From: Pseudomonadota bacterium
GTDB taxonomy: Bacteria > Pseudomonadota > Alphaproteobacteria > Micavibrionales > UBA2020
DNA length: 64,000 bases
Reading direction: 5' to 3'
NCBI GenBank assembly: GCA_021849295.1
Contig: JAJZTA010000003.1
Coordinates: 1-64,000, forward strand
Shown piece after piece: positions 7-5,993 of this stretch (positions are counted from its first letter, which is position 1; each line of letters begins with the position of its first letter). The notes under the pieces are model-generated. The model made no database searches. It had not been told where the DNA came from and saw only the letters and a program-made list of their open reading frames with translations. The translations under genes and the position numbers were made by a program.

Positions 7-702
7 TTCATAGCTTCCCCCCCGACACGGCTATGCTATGATCGACAGTGTTGTTCGGTTCATAGACCAGCTGTCATAGCTTCCCCCCCGACACGGCTAT
101 GCTATGATGCGGGAAACGGGCATGGTGTGGTTGCTCCTGTCATAGCTTCCCCCCCGACACGGCTATGCTATGATACTCCTTAGATGATGAGGAGCCCGAA
201 GATTGTCATAGCTTCCCCCCCGACACGGCTATGCTATGATAGATCGCACGTGCGCAGGACGAGACCGCGAGTCATAGCTTCCCCCCCGACACGGCTATGC
301 TATGATAAATTGGGTGGAGGCACAGTCTCAAAGCGGGTCATAGCTTCCCCCCCGACACGGCTATGCTATGATCATCTTCAGGAGATTCCGGCGCAGGCGC
401 ACGTCATAGCTTCCCCCCCGACACGGCTATGCTATGATCAAACGCGCCCTTTGTGCGGTTTATCACATGTCATAGCTTCCCCCCCGACACGGCTATGCTA
501 TGATGTTGACGTGCAGCCCCAGTTTGCCGTCGGAGTCATAGCTTCCCCCCCGACACGGCTATGCTATGATACGGGGCGCAAACTTGCTTGGCAGATGCGG
601 GTCATAGCTTCCCCCCCGACACGGCTATGCTATGATCTTGCTCTTGCTGGCGGCACGGCTCTTGCTGTCATAGCTTCCCCCCCGACACGGCTATGCTATG
701 AT
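7..702 (+). CRISPR. Type II-C CRISPR array, 11 repeats and 10 complete spacers
   Basis: A 36-bp repeat recurs every 66 bp, starting at 7, 73, 139, 205, 271, 337, 403, 469, 535, 601 and 667, with ten 30-bp unrelated spacers between. Bases 1-6 may be the end of another spacer, so the array may continue to the left. All repeats are identical except the first, which has T for G at base 1. The repeat has a run of seven C and ends in TGCTATGAT, an extended -10 box, as in Neisseria-type II-C arrays where each crRNA has its own promoter. The + strand is the crRNA strand, because the tracrRNA anti-repeat at 5110-5143 is complementary to it. The array therefore runs toward the cas genes, opposite to them. 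Confidence 0.97.
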
Positions 703-735
703 CGATACGCTATAATGACTTGATATTAATCAGAA

Positions 736-784
736 AAAGACCGAGCGGTTCAAAACAAAAGGAGCTGTTCGGTCTTTGTTTTTT
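736..784. terminator. Bidirectional terminator between array and cas2
   Basis: Bases 736-751 pair with 762-777, giving a 16-bp stem (inner seven pairs partly G-U) around a short A-rich loop. On the + strand it is followed by TTTGTTTTTT, on the - strand by TTTTTC. It can end the crRNA transcript from the left and the cas operon transcript from the right. The cas2 stop codon lies inside the hairpin. Confidence 0.85.
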
Positions 785-1079
785 CGCGAATCTTCTGTTT
801 TCCGATCAGAATCTTCATGCGCTCATATTGCTTGTCGGTGATCTGAATCGCCCTGACACTGCCTTTTGAGGGTATTGAATTATGCAATCTTGAAAGGTGT
901 TTGTCAACCCTTTCTTGGCCGTTGCAGACACGTGCATAGACCGAAAACTGAATCATCATATAGCCGTCTTTCAGCAAAAAATTCCGAAAGCGTGTTGCCG
1001 TATGGCGCTCCTCTTTTGATTTTACGGGTAGATCAAAGAACACAAAAAGCCACATGAATCTATCCTGTGCCGCCGTCAT
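750..1079 (-). CDS. cas2: CRISPR-associated endoribonuclease Cas2
   Basis: This 109-residue protein has the Cas2 ferredoxin-like fold signature near its N-terminus (WLFVFFDLPV, with the conserved Asp) followed by a RFRNFLLKDGY helix typical of type II Cas2. Cas2 dimers bridge two Cas1 dimers in the spacer-integration complex. Its ATG overlaps the cas1 stop codon by four bases (ATGA), so the two are translationally coupled. It is the last gene of the cas9-cas1-cas2 operon, and its final codons form part of the terminator stem. Length and sequence are normal for the family and no residue seems missing. Confidence 0.95.
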   Translation of the reverse strand: MTAAQDRFMWLFVFFDLPVKSKEERHTATRFRNFLLKDGYMMIQFSVYARVCNGQERVDKHLSRLHNSIPSKGSVRAIQITDKQYERMKILIGKQKIREKTKTEQLLLF

Positions 1080-1981
1080 AACAGAGTTTTTTGGATTTCA
1101 GGAAAAATCATTTCCTGTGGGTCTTTTTTCTCGATAGCGGCAACCAGCCTTTCCGCGACTTTGTCCGAGGCATTCATCAACGTATGCACTTCTTGCGACA
1201 ACATGCAGGTTGTCGTTAAAATACCCGCCAGTTTCTGGCGATTTTCTTTTGATAGATCATCTTGCGACAGATCGCCCGCCAGTTGCATGGATTTAACCTG
1301 ATTGTCCACGAATGGGCGGAACACTTCTATAACATCGTCCGCGAGATTGAAGGCGTTGAGATCGCTGTCATGGTGCAGACCAAAAGCGGGCAATAGTCCA
1401 AAACTTACAACTGATCTGGCAATAGATGCACGCACAATGGCGTAGCCGTAGTTCAAAGCACCATTAATCACGTCCGTTGCATGGCGGCGAAAATCAGAGC
1501 CAAAAAGATTCTGCCAGTACTCCCGCGCCGCTTGTGCTTCCACGTTTTTTTCGTCGCCGGAAGTGACATGCTTGCGCATGGCACAGAGGGCTTTTGCGGC
1601 GTTTTTGTGCCCGTATAGTTCAAGAACGTCCGCTTGTCCTGTGATTTTAGCTTTGATAATAGATTGCCAGCAGCGTTTTTTGAAAGGTTCTGACCAGCCG
1701 ATTTGTAAATGAGCAACCTTGCTTTGCCGCGAATGTTCATGGAAGGGATGCAGAACGCCGTTTGGCGTATGTGCCGCATCGCACGTGACGATACAAACGC
1801 CTTGTTCCTGACAGCGTGCCAGCAAAGCCGTGCTGACTGTGATATGATGGCTTTCCAGTATAACGCAGGTCAAATCCTCGACTGCGACAGAAAAGACCCC
1901 TTCATCGTTCTCCAGTTGCAACTGTGCGTTTTTCAGCGACAGCCGCGCCGGATTTTGCACGAGCAGATTTCGCCAAGCCAA
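1076..1981 (-). CDS. cas1: CRISPR-associated integrase Cas1 (type II)
   Basis: Cas1 of 301 residues, the integrase that inserts new spacers. The N-terminus (MAWRNLLVQNPARLSLKN) aligns with the usual start of type II Cas1. The C-terminal catalytic half has the LNYGYAIVR helix, the GLHH histidine and the VIEVFRP acidic motif that bind metal. The start is TTG at 1981: no ATG lies near, and a GGGGGA ribosome-binding site sits about eight bases upstream, inside cas9. The gene therefore overlaps the 3' end of cas9 by 80 nt in another frame. No csn2 or cas4 is present, which fits subtype II-C. Confidence 0.95.
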   Translation of the reverse strand: MAWRNLLVQNPARLSLKNAQLQLENDEGVFSVAVEDLTCVILESHHITVSTALLARCQEQGVCIVTCDAAHTPNGVLHPFHEHSRQSKVAHLQIGWSEPFKKRCWQSIIKAKITGQADVLELYGHKNAAKALCAMRKHVTSGDEKNVEAQAAREYWQNLFGSDFRRHATDVINGALNYGYAIVRASIARSVVSFGLLPAFGLHHDSDLNAFNLADDVIEVFRPFVDNQVKSMQLAGDLSQDDLSKENRQKLAGILTTTCMLSQEVHTLMNASDKVAERLVAAIEKKDPQEMIFPEIQKTLL

Positions 1982-4900
1982 GACGTTTTTCCCCCTTCAC
2001 CTTGTGCTTTTCCCCGAAGTAATTCACGGTGTATTTTTCAAACAGCAGAAGTGTTTTTACGCCTAAACCCTCTTTGTCCCCGTTCTTGCCAAAAGAGGGA
2101 TCTCTATCATGGGCGCGAATGTTGATATTTCCAGTTCCGCGATGGGTTCCGAAATAATATCCCTCAACTTCTTCTTTCTTACTTTTTATCCGTACATAGT
2201 CATTTTTATAAAGGCTAAAAAGGAACTCTGCTTCGCTCACATCAGTCCATTCATCTTCTGGCTTAAAGGCGACAATCGCACGATTTGGAAGGGCATTCAT
2301 GGCGCAATGATGAACATATATAGGGACGAGATGATACTTACCGTCCTTTCTAAACACATCCACTCGAATCATATTACCGTTGCTAGCCAGTCCTTCGTTT
2401 ACTTCAACTCCACTTTTTTCTCCGGTAACAATGCGGACAGAATTGACTACGGCGGCTTTTTCTTCCCCGCCTTTGCCGACGAGTTTGACGGGTTCTGCAA
2501 ATGCTTTTTGCGGATCGCCCTTGTGTTCGTCCAGTCTGGCTTTGAGTATCTTATAAAGATTTTCGTTGCGTCCGTCTTTATCCACGAGGTTTTCGAGCAT
2601 GGCGGGCTTTAGTGCCGTCAAACGCACTTTTTGCACGGCTATGCGCTGGCCGTCGTCATTGTGGCGTATGCTGCGGATCGTTTCTTCATGCGCCTGTCCG
2701 GTAATTTTCCTGTACGGCATCCGGCTAATGAATATACCGTCTATCTTTTCCTTCGCCGTTTCGCGGAAACCTTCCCACGGCAAAGGCGGGAGCGGCCTTT
2801 CAGCCGGATTTTTCTTGCGGGCTTCGTATTTATTCCAGTTTGTCAGTTTTTGCACCATGCTTTGCGTGGAACACGCAAGAACAATGGCATCAAGCGCATG
2901 GTGCCGGTCATTGCTGCGGTTTTTATCAGGGAAGCCCCATGCGCCGCGCAGGTGCGCCGTCAATGCGCCGTTACGGGTTTGAACGCGGTTGCCTTTGCCA
3001 AGGTCAAGGCTGTTTTCAAGATGATTTTTGAGCAGGCGCGTGATATAGCGTGTGTCGTTCAAATGGCGGGATTTCCATTTATCTTCTTTTTCTGCGTCAA
3101 ATTCCTGCATCAAGAGACGTTCGGCTTTGGCGCGGGGCAGTTGTCGTGCAAAGTTATTTTCCAGCGCTTCCCATGTTTGCGTACCCTTAAGATATTCATA
3201 CGGGGTTTTATTGCCCTTTCTCTGGTTTTCGTCCGTAAAGCATAAAACCTTGTTCATGTAGCTGTCATCATACGAGCGGCTATAGGGCAATATATGGTCA
3301 ATTTGCGTAGCGACAGGATCGCGCAACAATTCAGGCTTGATTTCTGCGCCGCTATAAATACAAAACCCTTTTTGTTCCATCCATAGGCGATATTTCAAAA
3401 GTTCCTCGCCATTAGGCTCATGGCCTAAAATTTCTTCCGCGTGTTTTGCGGCGTCTTCTTTATTTTTCTGGTTTTTTGCCCTGATTTTGTCAAGGTCTCT
3501 CCGATCTTGAAAAGATTTTCCGAGTTCGTCCGCAACTTCAACAATGATCGTTTCCGGTAGGCCATGCCTGCGAATGATTGCATTTACGACTTTGCGCACT
3601 TGCGACAAGGCACGGTCGACAACCGGATTTCGGCTTGGCTCAAACTGCGGCACAAGCGCCAGTCCCTTGTTTTGCCGCTTATTAAAATTGTATCCTGCCG
3701 CCTCACAGGCTTTGTCATACGTCATGCCCTGTTTCATGAAGGGAAGGATTTTACGTGCCGCTTTCGCTGAAATGTCTATGGACTTTTTAAAGTCCGTTAT
3801 TTTTGACAATGCCTGCCTTTCCGTGACATTTACGCCAATGCCCGAAAGCAGTTTATCAATTTCTTCGCTGTCTTCATGAAATGACAAAATCCGCGCAATC
3901 TCATCCAGTTTTTCAATGTCTTTGCCAATCCATCTTTGCCAGTCCGTGTCGCTCTGACCCAAGGCTTCTTTCAGGGCGTGGTAACCTTTCAAGGCCATGA
4001 ATACGGCGCGCCCTTCCACTGAATCCCTGATCTTTTCCCAATCCGATTCCTTGTCATCCGTCTTTCTATAGCTGATATTAAAGCGTTCTTCGTCAGCCAT
4101 GCCGAGAAGTTTTCTGATTTGTTTGTATTTCACATCTTTGTTTTTATGAGCCAGTTCAGCGATTTGATTTTTTTCATCTTGTGTCAAGGGACGTTCGCTT
4201 CCGCCGTATTCTTTAATGCGCAGATTATTCAGTTTTGACCACAGGACAAAAAGTTCTGCGGAGTAAGAAAATTTCGGCGCGCGCTTTACCTTGTTTCCTA
4301 TGTTTCCTTCAAGGAAACAAAAACCCACGAGTTTTTCGCTGGATTGAAGTGGGCGCTGCGTAAACGCAATTTGTTCATATTTTTCTTGCAGGGCAGGGGT
4401 AGCTTTATCCTGACCAAATTTTTCCTGCTGCCTGAAAATTTCCCTTACTTCCTCGCGCAAAAGGCTGCGGACAACAAAATTTTCGTATGATCCGTGTCCA
4501 TTTCTTTTCTTGTCTTGTGTCGCCAAAAATGCGCCTATCGTTCTGGCGCCAGCTTCGGTCATTCTTTCCTGAAGATGTTTGGAACCTTCAAGGGCTTTTT
4601 TCCCTTCCGTGTCGTTCTCGGCGGCTTTTTTGCTGTTTGATTGAAACCCGCGTCTTTTGGCGATATGAAACAAAACGTGCGCAAATTCTGCGTCGGTTAA
4701 TTTTCTTTTCAAGGCGTCTTCGCGCAGTTGCCAAACATCGGAGATATTTTCTGTTCGAGAGGAATCAATACTATCAACCGCCTGTTTGCTAAAACCGTAT
4801 TTTAAAAGCAGCTTGCGGATATTGTTTTTACGTTGTGCGCGGCGGCGAATGACGCGCCGTAAACCCCGCGCTTTACGGCGCGGCAGGGCAAGAGAAGACC

Positions 4901-5027
4901 CATCCTTAGGGTTCTCGGCAGAATCAAAGATATGAACACCCGTGAAATCAATTTTTTGTTTTTCGGGCGTTACTCCGGCGAATCCAGTGGAAGCAATACC
5001 TACATCAAGCCCTAGAATATATCCCAT
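1902..5027 (-). CDS. cas9: Type II-C CRISPR RNA-guided endonuclease Cas9
   Basis: A compact 1041-residue Cas9 that cuts DNA matched by the crRNA:tracrRNA pair. In order: RuvC-I with LGLDVGIASTG (Asp8), an arginine-rich bridge helix at about 48-75, an alpha-helical recognition lobe, RuvC-II with IIVEVADELGKS (Glu497), HNH with QIDHILPYSRS (His578), and RuvC-III with HHALDAI (His709/710 and Asp713). All nuclease residues are intact. The C-terminus resembles the PAM-interacting part of Neisseria Cas9 up to GLGVKTLLLFEKY, followed by an extra basic tail of about 40 residues that lies partly in the cas1 overlap. The start is the ATG at 5027, preceded by AAGGA at good spacing. An ATG 54 bases further up lacks this. 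The gene is more AT-rich than the chromosome, suggesting transfer. Confidence 0.97.
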   Translation of the reverse strand: MGYILGLDVGIASTGFAGVTPEKQKIDFTGVHIFDSAENPKDGSSLALPRRKARGLRRVIRRRAQRKNNIRKLLLKYGFSKQAVDSIDSSRTENISDVWQLREDALKRKLTDAEFAHVLFHIAKRRGFQSNSKKAAENDTEGKKALEGSKHLQERMTEAGARTIGAFLATQDKKRNGHGSYENFVVRSLLREEVREIFRQQEKFGQDKATPALQEKYEQIAFTQRPLQSSEKLVGFCFLEGNIGNKVKRAPKFSYSAELFVLWSKLNNLRIKEYGGSERPLTQDEKNQIAELAHKNKDVKYKQIRKLLGMADEERFNISYRKTDDKESDWEKIRDSVEGRAVFMALKGYHALKEALGQSDTDWQRWIGKDIEKLDEIARILSFHEDSEEIDKLLSGIGVNVTERQALSKITDFKKSIDISAKAARKILPFMKQGMTYDKACEAAGYNFNKRQNKGLALVPQFEPSRNPVVDRALSQVRKVVNAIIRRHGLPETIIVEVADELGKSFQDRRDLDKIRAKNQKNKEDAAKHAEEILGHEPNGEELLKYRLWMEQKGFCIYSGAEIKPELLRDPVATQIDHILPYSRSYDDSYMNKVLCFTDENQRKGNKTPYEYLKGTQTWEALENNFARQLPRAKAERLLMQEFDAEKEDKWKSRHLNDTRYITRLLKNHLENSLDLGKGNRVQTRNGALTAHLRGAWGFPDKNRSNDRHHALDAIVLACSTQSMVQKLTNWNKYEARKKNPAERPLPPLPWEGFRETAKEKIDGIFISRMPYRKITGQAHEETIRSIRHNDDGQRIAVQKVRLTALKPAMLENLVDKDGRNENLYKILKARLDEHKGDPQKAFAEPVKLVGKGGEEKAAVVNSVRIVTGEKSGVEVNEGLASNGNMIRVDVFRKDGKYHLVPIYVHHCAMNALPNRAIVAFKPEDEWTDVSEAEFLFSLYKNDYVRIKSKKEEVEGYYFGTHRGTGNINIRAHDRDPSFGKNGDKEGLGVKTLLLFEKYTVNYFGEKHKVKGEKRLGLAKSARAKSGAAVAEKRTVATGER

Positions 5028-5068
5028 AATAAAAATCCTTGTGTGTAAATAAACTTTTGAAAGATAGA

Positions 5069-5097
5069 TTGACAAAAACAATCCGCGATTGCAACAT
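5069..5097 (+). promoter_or_regulatory. Likely tracrRNA promoter, overlapping the cas9 promoter region
   Basis: TTGACA (5069-5074) is followed after 17 bp by CAACAT (5092-5097), which would start transcription near 5104, just before the anti-repeat. On the other strand the same bases give TTGTCA followed after 17 bp by TTATTT, a possible cas9 promoter. The two divergent promoters would then share their -35 region. The -10 boxes are weak matches, so this is inference. Confidence 0.5.
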
Positions 5098-5103
5098 GCG
5101 ACT

Positions 5104-5203
5104 TACGCACATAGCATAGCCGTGTCGGGAATGTTGCTATGATAAGGTTACAAGTTTACTTGTAAACGCGTGGGGCTCTGTTCTTCGGAACATCCCCTAT
5201 TTT
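5104..5203 (+). ncRNA. tracrRNA of the II-C system
   Basis: Bases 5110-5129 are a perfect 20-nt complement of repeat positions 15-34. Bases 5136-5143 pair with repeat positions 1-8 (one G-U). Between them is a 6-by-6 internal loop (TTCCCC in the repeat, AATGTT here). After the anti-repeat comes ATAAGG, as in Neisseria tracrRNA, then a hairpin TTACAAG-TTTA-CTTGTAA (5148-5165). The last hairpin (5172-5197) has a GGGG/CCCC base and a TGTTC-TTCG-GAACA top, and is followed by TATTTT, which looks like the terminator. The transcript is about 100 nt and divergent from cas9. Ends are predicted from promoter and terminator only. Confidence 0.9.
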
Positions 5204-5249
5204 CATGCGTATCATCATCTTGCCTTTGTAATTCGGGGATAATTTAAGA

Positions 5250-5564
5250 ATGACCGAAGTTGTCGAATATGAAAGCGAGAGCGGAAAAAACCATTTTAGA
5301 AAATGGTTTCTTGTCTTGCCTGCACATCACGCCGATAAAGTGGTGCAGGCCATACGCCGGATGGAAGCGGGCAATCTTGGAGATCATAAAAGTGTCGGCG
5401 GCGGGGTGTTTGAGCATCGTATCCACAATCCGGCGCTCCGCGTTTATTTCGGCAAGGATGGTGATGAATTGGTGATTCTTTTGGCGGGCGGCTCTAAAAC
5501 CCGCCAAGGCCAAGATATTGTGAAGGCCAGAGAACTTTGGCGGGAATACAAGGAAAATAATTAA
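5250..5564 (+). CDS. RelE/HigB-family toxin (addiction module killer protein)
   Basis: A 104-residue protein with the signature of the phage-derived Gp49/HigB-like group in the RelE/ParE superfamily: the N-terminal HFRKWFLVLP region, RRMEAGNLGDHKSVGGGVFEHRI, the LRVYFGKDGDELVILLAGG core strand pair and a C-terminal DIVKARELWREY helix. Related toxins cleave mRNA on the ribosome. The gene starts 47 bases after the tracrRNA terminator hairpin on the same strand and is followed by an HTH antitoxin gene, giving the toxin-first order usual for higBA. A weak GGGGAT ribosome-binding site lies about 9 bases upstream of the ATG. Activity is inferred from the family. Confidence 0.88.
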   Translation: MTEVVEYESESGKNHFRKWFLVLPAHHADKVVQAIRRMEAGNLGDHKSVGGGVFEHRIHNPALRVYFGKDGDELVILLAGGSKTRQGQDIVKARELWREYKENN

Positions 5565-5598
5565 ATAAAATCAATATGTTATAAAATATCCCTTGATA

Positions 5599-5622
5599 AA
5601 TGGTAATATATATATTACCATT
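5599..5622. promoter_or_regulatory. Perfect 24-bp palindrome between toxin and antitoxin genes
   Basis: Bases 5599-5610 are the exact reverse complement of 5611-5622; the half-site is AATGGTAATATA. It lies 27 bases upstream of the antitoxin ATG, in a very AT-rich spacer of 84 bp. Antitoxins with HTH domains often bind such palindromes to repress their own gene, so an operator is likely. The position suggests the antitoxin has its own promoter here. Confidence 0.6.
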
Positions 5623-5648
5623 GAAGGAGATAGGAAAGGATAAATGCC

Positions 5649-5993
5649 ATGCCCATTACCCGCAGTTTCAGGGAAACCGTTGTCGAACGCGCCAAGACGG
5701 ATAAAGAGTTTCGCCAGCTTATGCTGGTGAACGGCTTTATCCATCTCATGCTCGGTAGGAATGACGAGGACGTATTTATCGGGCGCTCCGGTATCCGCGA
5801 CTATATCAACGCCACGCTGGGCTTTCAGAAGCTGGCGGAGAAGACGGGCATTCACGCCAAAAGCCTCATGCAAATGTTCAGCAACAAGGGCAACCCAAGC
5901 CTGCACAATTTGAATCTTGTCTTCCGTGTGTTGTTCAAACAGGAAAAATTGAACATGGAAGAAATCGTGCAGGGGGCTATGGCGGCGGCTTGA
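5649..5993 (+). CDS. HTH-type antitoxin of the HigB/RelE-like toxin
   Basis: A 114-residue protein matching the alphaproteobacterial antitoxin/regulator family with N-terminal RSFRETVVERAKTDKEFR, a central GRSGIRDYINATLGFQKLAEKTG and an HTH core KSLMQMFSNKGNPSLHNL. It would neutralise the toxin encoded just upstream and repress transcription through its HTH. The ATG at 5649 follows GGAAAGGA at workable spacing. Another ATG five bases upstream is out of frame. The 84-bp gap to the toxin gene is large for a co-translated pair and contains a palindromic putative operator. Confidence 0.85.
   Translation: MPITRSFRETVVERAKTDKEFRQLMLVNGFIHLMLGRNDEDVFIGRSGIRDYINATLGFQKLAEKTGIHAKSLMQMFSNKGNPSLHNLNLVFRVLFKQEKLNMEEIVQGAMAAA

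Follow-up and report, generated by a model that had tools for sequence, protein, structure and literature searches.

Introduction

The type II-C CRISPR-Cas system of Campylobacter jejuni has cas9, cas1 and cas2 as its only cas genes, and the 3' end of its repeat resembles an extended -10 promoter element. Differential RNA-seq identified primary crRNA starts in each spacer of this array, at position 5 (Dugar et al. 2013, PMC3656092). With a promoter in the repeat, C. jejuni dispenses with processing at the 5' end only: the 3' end of its crRNA is still made by RNase III together with tracrRNA (PMC3656092). Neisseria meningitidis is reported to have a promoter embedded in each repeat, no external leader promoter and a dispensable RNase III (Zhang et al. 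2013, Mol Cell 50:488). In Clostridium cellulolyticum the array is transcribed opposite to the cas genes and the repeat end is extended -10-like (PMC7038990). In Flavobacterium columnare transcription runs toward the variable end of the array (PMC8092290). A survey of II-C systems found a promoter per repeat and acquisition at the last repeat; terminators upstream of the array were tested and were not enriched (Feussner et al. 2025, PMC12080349).

The locus described here, which is known from sequence alone, shares with C. jejuni the three-gene cas set and the extended -10-like repeat end, the latter being different in sequence (GGTAAAAT in C. jejuni). It would share with N. meningitidis the embedded promoters and the independence from an external leader promoter, with TATGAT in place of the -10 sequence TACAAT. 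It resembles the C. cellulolyticum locus in the opposed direction of array and cas genes and in its repeat end, and the F. columnare locus in the predicted transcription toward the variable end. A difference is that Flavobacterium is believed to rely on a TTG -33-type element instead of a sigma-70 extended -10 (PMC8092290). As in the survey of Feussner et al., a promoter per repeat and acquisition at the last repeat are proposed; the terminator considered here is downstream, on the leader side, and not upstream.

The mechanism itself has been described before (Dugar 2013; Zhang 2013; Feussner 2025). Our addition is comparative and modest: the conservation of the promoter bases is separated from repeat symmetry and pairing, and a leader-side terminator is described.

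Organization of the locus

The window, that is, the whole 64-kb stretch of DNA that was analysed, carries an ordinary type II-C CRISPR-Cas locus, the coordinates of which are given in Table 1. The genes cas9, cas1 and cas2 were identified by NCBIfam, and no further cas gene (csn2, cas4) was found at the locus. The 3' end of cas9 overlaps cas1 by approximately 75 nt. The best relatives of the Cas9 protein are those of loci sharing this gene order, and the named close relatives are mostly alphaproteobacterial assemblies. The closest relative, L062 (G133:C8), has a second, divergent Cas9, with no array within the 19 kb examined. A 5-kb contig (L011) encoding a Cas9 76% identical to that of the window is binned in a Candidatus Micrarchaeota genome and is probably mis-binned.

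Table 1. Positions of the array, its signals and the associated genes in the window.
Feature	Position	Strand	Remarks
CRISPR array	7..702	+	11 repeats of 36 nt, 10 spacers of 30 nt
First repeat	7..42	+	position 1 changed, G to T; other 35 nt as in the remaining copies
TGCTATGAT, extended -10 match, ten copies	starts 34, 100, 166, 232, 298, 364, 430, 496, 562, 628	+	
TGCTATGAT, extended -10 match, last repeat	694..702	+	
Putative leader, spacer-insertion side	703..735	+	conserved among relatives
Predicted intrinsic terminator, crRNA direction	736..784	+	16-bp stem 736-777, loop 10 nt, T-run 779-784
cas2	750..1079	-	TIGR01573
cas1, type II	1076..1981	-	TIGR03639
cas9	1902..5081	-	about 1050 aa, HNH and RuvC domains; TIGR01865, Pfam
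Putative tracrRNA	5104..5206	+	anti-repeat 5110-5143, then hairpins; predicted start and end

The anti-repeat of the putative tracrRNA matches the repeat, as in type II-C loci. The co-fold of repeat and anti-repeat has an energy of -69.8 kcal/mol and gives a duplex of nearly full length. A possible -35 sequence (TTGACA) is located just upstream of the tracrRNA, near position 5070, and an RNase III gene is encoded in the genome. Beside the tracrRNA, beyond cas9, positions 5250-5993 encode a Gp49-like protein (HigB-type toxin family) and an unassigned protein of 114 aa which may be its antitoxin, a possible toxin-antitoxin pair at the CRISPR locus.

The 36-nt repeat, GTCATAGCTTCCCCCCCGACACGGCTATGCTATGAT, recurs with a period of 66 nt from start to start. 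Repeats 2-11 are identical and the single change in the array is found in the first copy. This copy is probably the oldest of the array, since its changed position, position 1, is the one most commonly changed in oldest repeats (see below). The window begins at base 1 of a 153-kb contig, from a genome that is 88% complete, and just 6 nt are available upstream of the first repeat. No additional pieces of the array were found on the other contigs of the genome, and the array may be complete. An open reading frame at 184-723 runs through the array and was rejected as a gene. The spacers gave no match among 50,697 phage records, so that the PAM side could not serve as a check on the orientation of the crRNA.

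All 11 repeats end in TGCTATGAT (TG-N-TATNAT), in agreement with the first-pass annotation, in which every repeat was said to end in an extended -10 consensus. Thirteen matches to TGNTATNAT were counted in the window against 2.13 expected; none of 100 shuffles reached this number, and a chance origin of the motif was rejected. These 13 sites are the 11 repeat ends, one site in cas1 (1840) and one in the anti-repeat of the tracrRNA (5135-5143). The 11 repeat ends are duplicates of one repeat and therefore count as one occurrence; since the copies in the window are not independent, the independent test is the comparison across species. The anti-repeat copy is itself TGCTATGAT; a promoter is unlikely there, and the motif taken by itself is therefore no proof of one. 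No good -35 was found in the repeat sequence.

Conservation of the -10 bases among related repeats

A total of 105 stretches around Cas9 matches were taken from the same order, class and phylum. From these, 75 arrays were kept, the window included, and reduced to 51 distinct repeats of 36 nt. Repeats were oriented by the rule that they start with G and end with T; four ambiguous arrays were set by hand, and L178 was turned afterwards.

The dinucleotide T31-A32 was found in 50 of the 51 repeats, and the lone exception was oriented backwards and carries TA when turned. G29, at -14, is present in 47, and T36 also in 47, the other four having C36, which counts against a promoter in the repeat. Position 33 is almost unconstrained, and A prevails at position 34. 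T31, A32 and T36 are the best conserved of the -10 bases. This order is the base ranking of the bacterial -10 box, G29 being the G of the extended -10.

Individual repeats vary in this region. Those of L127, L178 and L181 end in TATAAC or TAAAAC, without T at -7, and that of L163 ends in TGCTACAAT, as in Neisseria meningitidis.

The comparison supports the claim of a promoter in each repeat, and suggests, from about 50 related loci, that the repeat promoter is the rule in this family. The first-pass annotation had pointed to the design in an alphaproteobacterial locus; it is not unusual there, and appears to be the general II-C arrangement. We put at about 0.88 the probability that, in this type II-C locus, each repeat carries at its 3' end an extended -10 promoter of the sigma-70 type, on the + strand, from which transcription starts inside the spacers.

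Array polarity and decay of the oldest repeat

In 74 of the 75 arrays the cas genes are located past the last repeat and are convergent with the crRNA sense. Conservation among relatives extends over the cas2-side flank and is mostly lacking from the cas-distal one. Changed repeats were found at the cas-distal end in 29 of the 56 arrays having 200 nt or more of upstream flank, versus 2 of 75 at the cas2 end. These three observations indicate that the growth end and the leader are most likely downstream of crRNA transcription, as they are in II-C systems elsewhere (PMC8092290; PMC12080349); the comparison with relatives places the leader where repeat-promoter II-C arrays have it. A leader in this position cannot supply the usual leader promoter. 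The earlier view that no leader promoter is needed is borne out, the conserved leader being at the opposite, cas2, end of the array.

In 30 of 73 arrays the oldest repeat has decayed, with position 1 changed in 20 of these 30 repeats versus 4 of 1253 internal repeats. The 30 altered repeats carry 133 mismatches: 93 in positions 1-9, 29 in 10-18, 10 in 19-27 and a single one in 28-36, where 33 would be expected under random placement. None of the 133 falls in positions 30-36, which contain the -10 hexamer. The extra upstream repeat of L067 and of L163 retains its 3' half alone. Feussner et al. (2025, PMC12080349) described mutation of the oldest repeat mostly in its first 15 nt; the bias was read mainly as suppression of extraneous crRNA, with the remark that the promoter must be retained. 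Our finding that the -10 hexamer is spared in full agrees with this remark.

Positions 17-27, outside the -10 box, are largely spared as well, and the decayed repeats may thus retain some feature in addition to the promoter. These are positions that pair with the tracrRNA, and their retention would be in line with a different origin of the crRNA: a single long precursor, initiated at a promoter ahead of the first repeat, with the crRNA 5' ends produced by processing and the -10 match incidental. The presence of RNase III, the pairing of most of the repeat with the anti-repeat and the missing upstream flank, which leaves room for an external promoter, are also compatible with such a precursor. 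It is opposed by the mostly unconserved cas-distal flanks of the related arrays, by the retention of T36 where this base is often unpaired, and by the oldest repeat of L188, in which six bases between 19 and 26 are lost and the -10 is intact. We regard the long precursor as unlikely, and prefer promoters in the repeats.

Symmetry and pairing of the repeat

The -10 appearance of the repeat end might also be a by-product of the inverted start of the repeat and of pairing with the anti-repeat: 7 of 8 outer positions of the window repeat are symmetric, and TGCTATGAT is present in the anti-repeat as well. The two constraints make predictions that the 51 repeats do not follow. Symmetry predicts C36, position 1 being always G, and T36 is found instead; it predicts G32 opposite C5, and all 30 repeats having C5 carry A32. 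Complementarity between positions 1 and 36 occurs in only 4 of the 51 repeats, between 5 and 32 in 19 and between 6 and 31 in 14, and TA...T is kept. Pairing of T36 with the anti-repeat is possible in only 23 of 48 loci, an approximate count from ungapped registers. The promoter bases thus persist where symmetry and pairing break down, and T36 is explained by neither. A by-product of this kind is very improbable and was rejected on the 51-repeat comparison.

A predicted terminator on the leader side of the array

The predicted terminator beyond the last repeat overlaps the 3' end of cas2, the 3' arm of its hairpin being at the same time cas2 coding sequence. The same hairpin folds in all 13 loci of the close clade, which show compensatory changes in it. 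In the alignment of these relatives 96.6% of the pair cells are standard, and the covariation score is above that of all 500 shuffles, a result that related sequences can give without structure.

Terminators in other arrays were counted by a perfect-stem scan with controls; the loop limit of the standard scan is below 10 nt and misses the leader hairpin. A perfect-stem terminator within 130 nt after the last repeat was found on the crRNA strand in 23 of 53 non-redundant loci and on the other strand in none of the 53, counts that are too low, as several of the 13 clade members fail the strict test though all fold the hairpin. Such a terminator was present in 2 of 40 control windows upstream of the arrays and in 5 of 186 random ones. 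The sense-strand terminator often begins within about 12 nt of the last repeat. That the terminators are on the sense strand only gives independent support for + strand transcription leaving the array, the direction claimed in the first-pass annotation and supported by the comparison.

Functional crRNA from the - strand, driven from the leader and cas2 side as in ordinary CRISPR arrays, would suit the position of the leader and a promoter-like TTGACA-17-CATAAT (11/12) in cas2 at 907-879 that points at the array, but such promoter-like sites are not above chance (3 vs 1.6), and this origin, to which we give almost no credence, was rejected on the layout of the tracrRNA, which is the usual one, upstream of cas9 on the + strand, and fits + strand crRNA, and on the strand of the terminators.

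Our coverage of the literature was incomplete; within it, only upstream terminators are discussed, and no report of a downstream, leader-side terminator was found. Such a terminator may be unreported so far. On balance we lean slightly towards the view that in many proteobacterial II-C arrays the leader also serves as the array terminator, ending repeat-driven transcripts before the convergent cas genes.

Discussion

From the sequence of this locus and its relatives we infer the following course of events. RNA polymerase would start approximately 5-9 nt into each spacer, and each transcript would copy the remaining 21-25 nt of the spacer and then the next repeat. The first-pass annotation had proposed independent short crRNA units. 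The anatomy of the array argues against such units: no terminator was seen between them, and the transcripts should therefore nest and run to the intrinsic terminator just before the convergent cas2. The tracrRNA, divergent from cas9, would form a duplex with the repeat; trimming of the 3' end is probably the work of RNase III. Spacer acquisition probably takes place at the cas2 end.

It had also been proposed that the crRNAs are not processed by RNase III. This would hold for the 5' ends and not for the 3' ends, which in C. jejuni depend on RNase III and tracrRNA (PMC3656092). Independence from RNase III was overstated, given the RNase III gene in the genome and the near full-length duplex of repeat and anti-repeat.

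At the level of sequence, the comparison carries the repeat-promoter design beyond the handful of II-C systems studied by experiment, to a Micavibrio-related alphaproteobacterial lineage and almost all of the 51 distinct proteobacterial II-C repeats. If this reading is true, each new spacer brings its own promoter, and old and new spacers alike could be expressed without a leader promoter. If the leader does act as terminator, the terminator lies beside the site of spacer insertion and stays next to the newest repeat as the array grows. A downstream terminator would make clear how promoters can point towards the cas operon without causing antisense interference.
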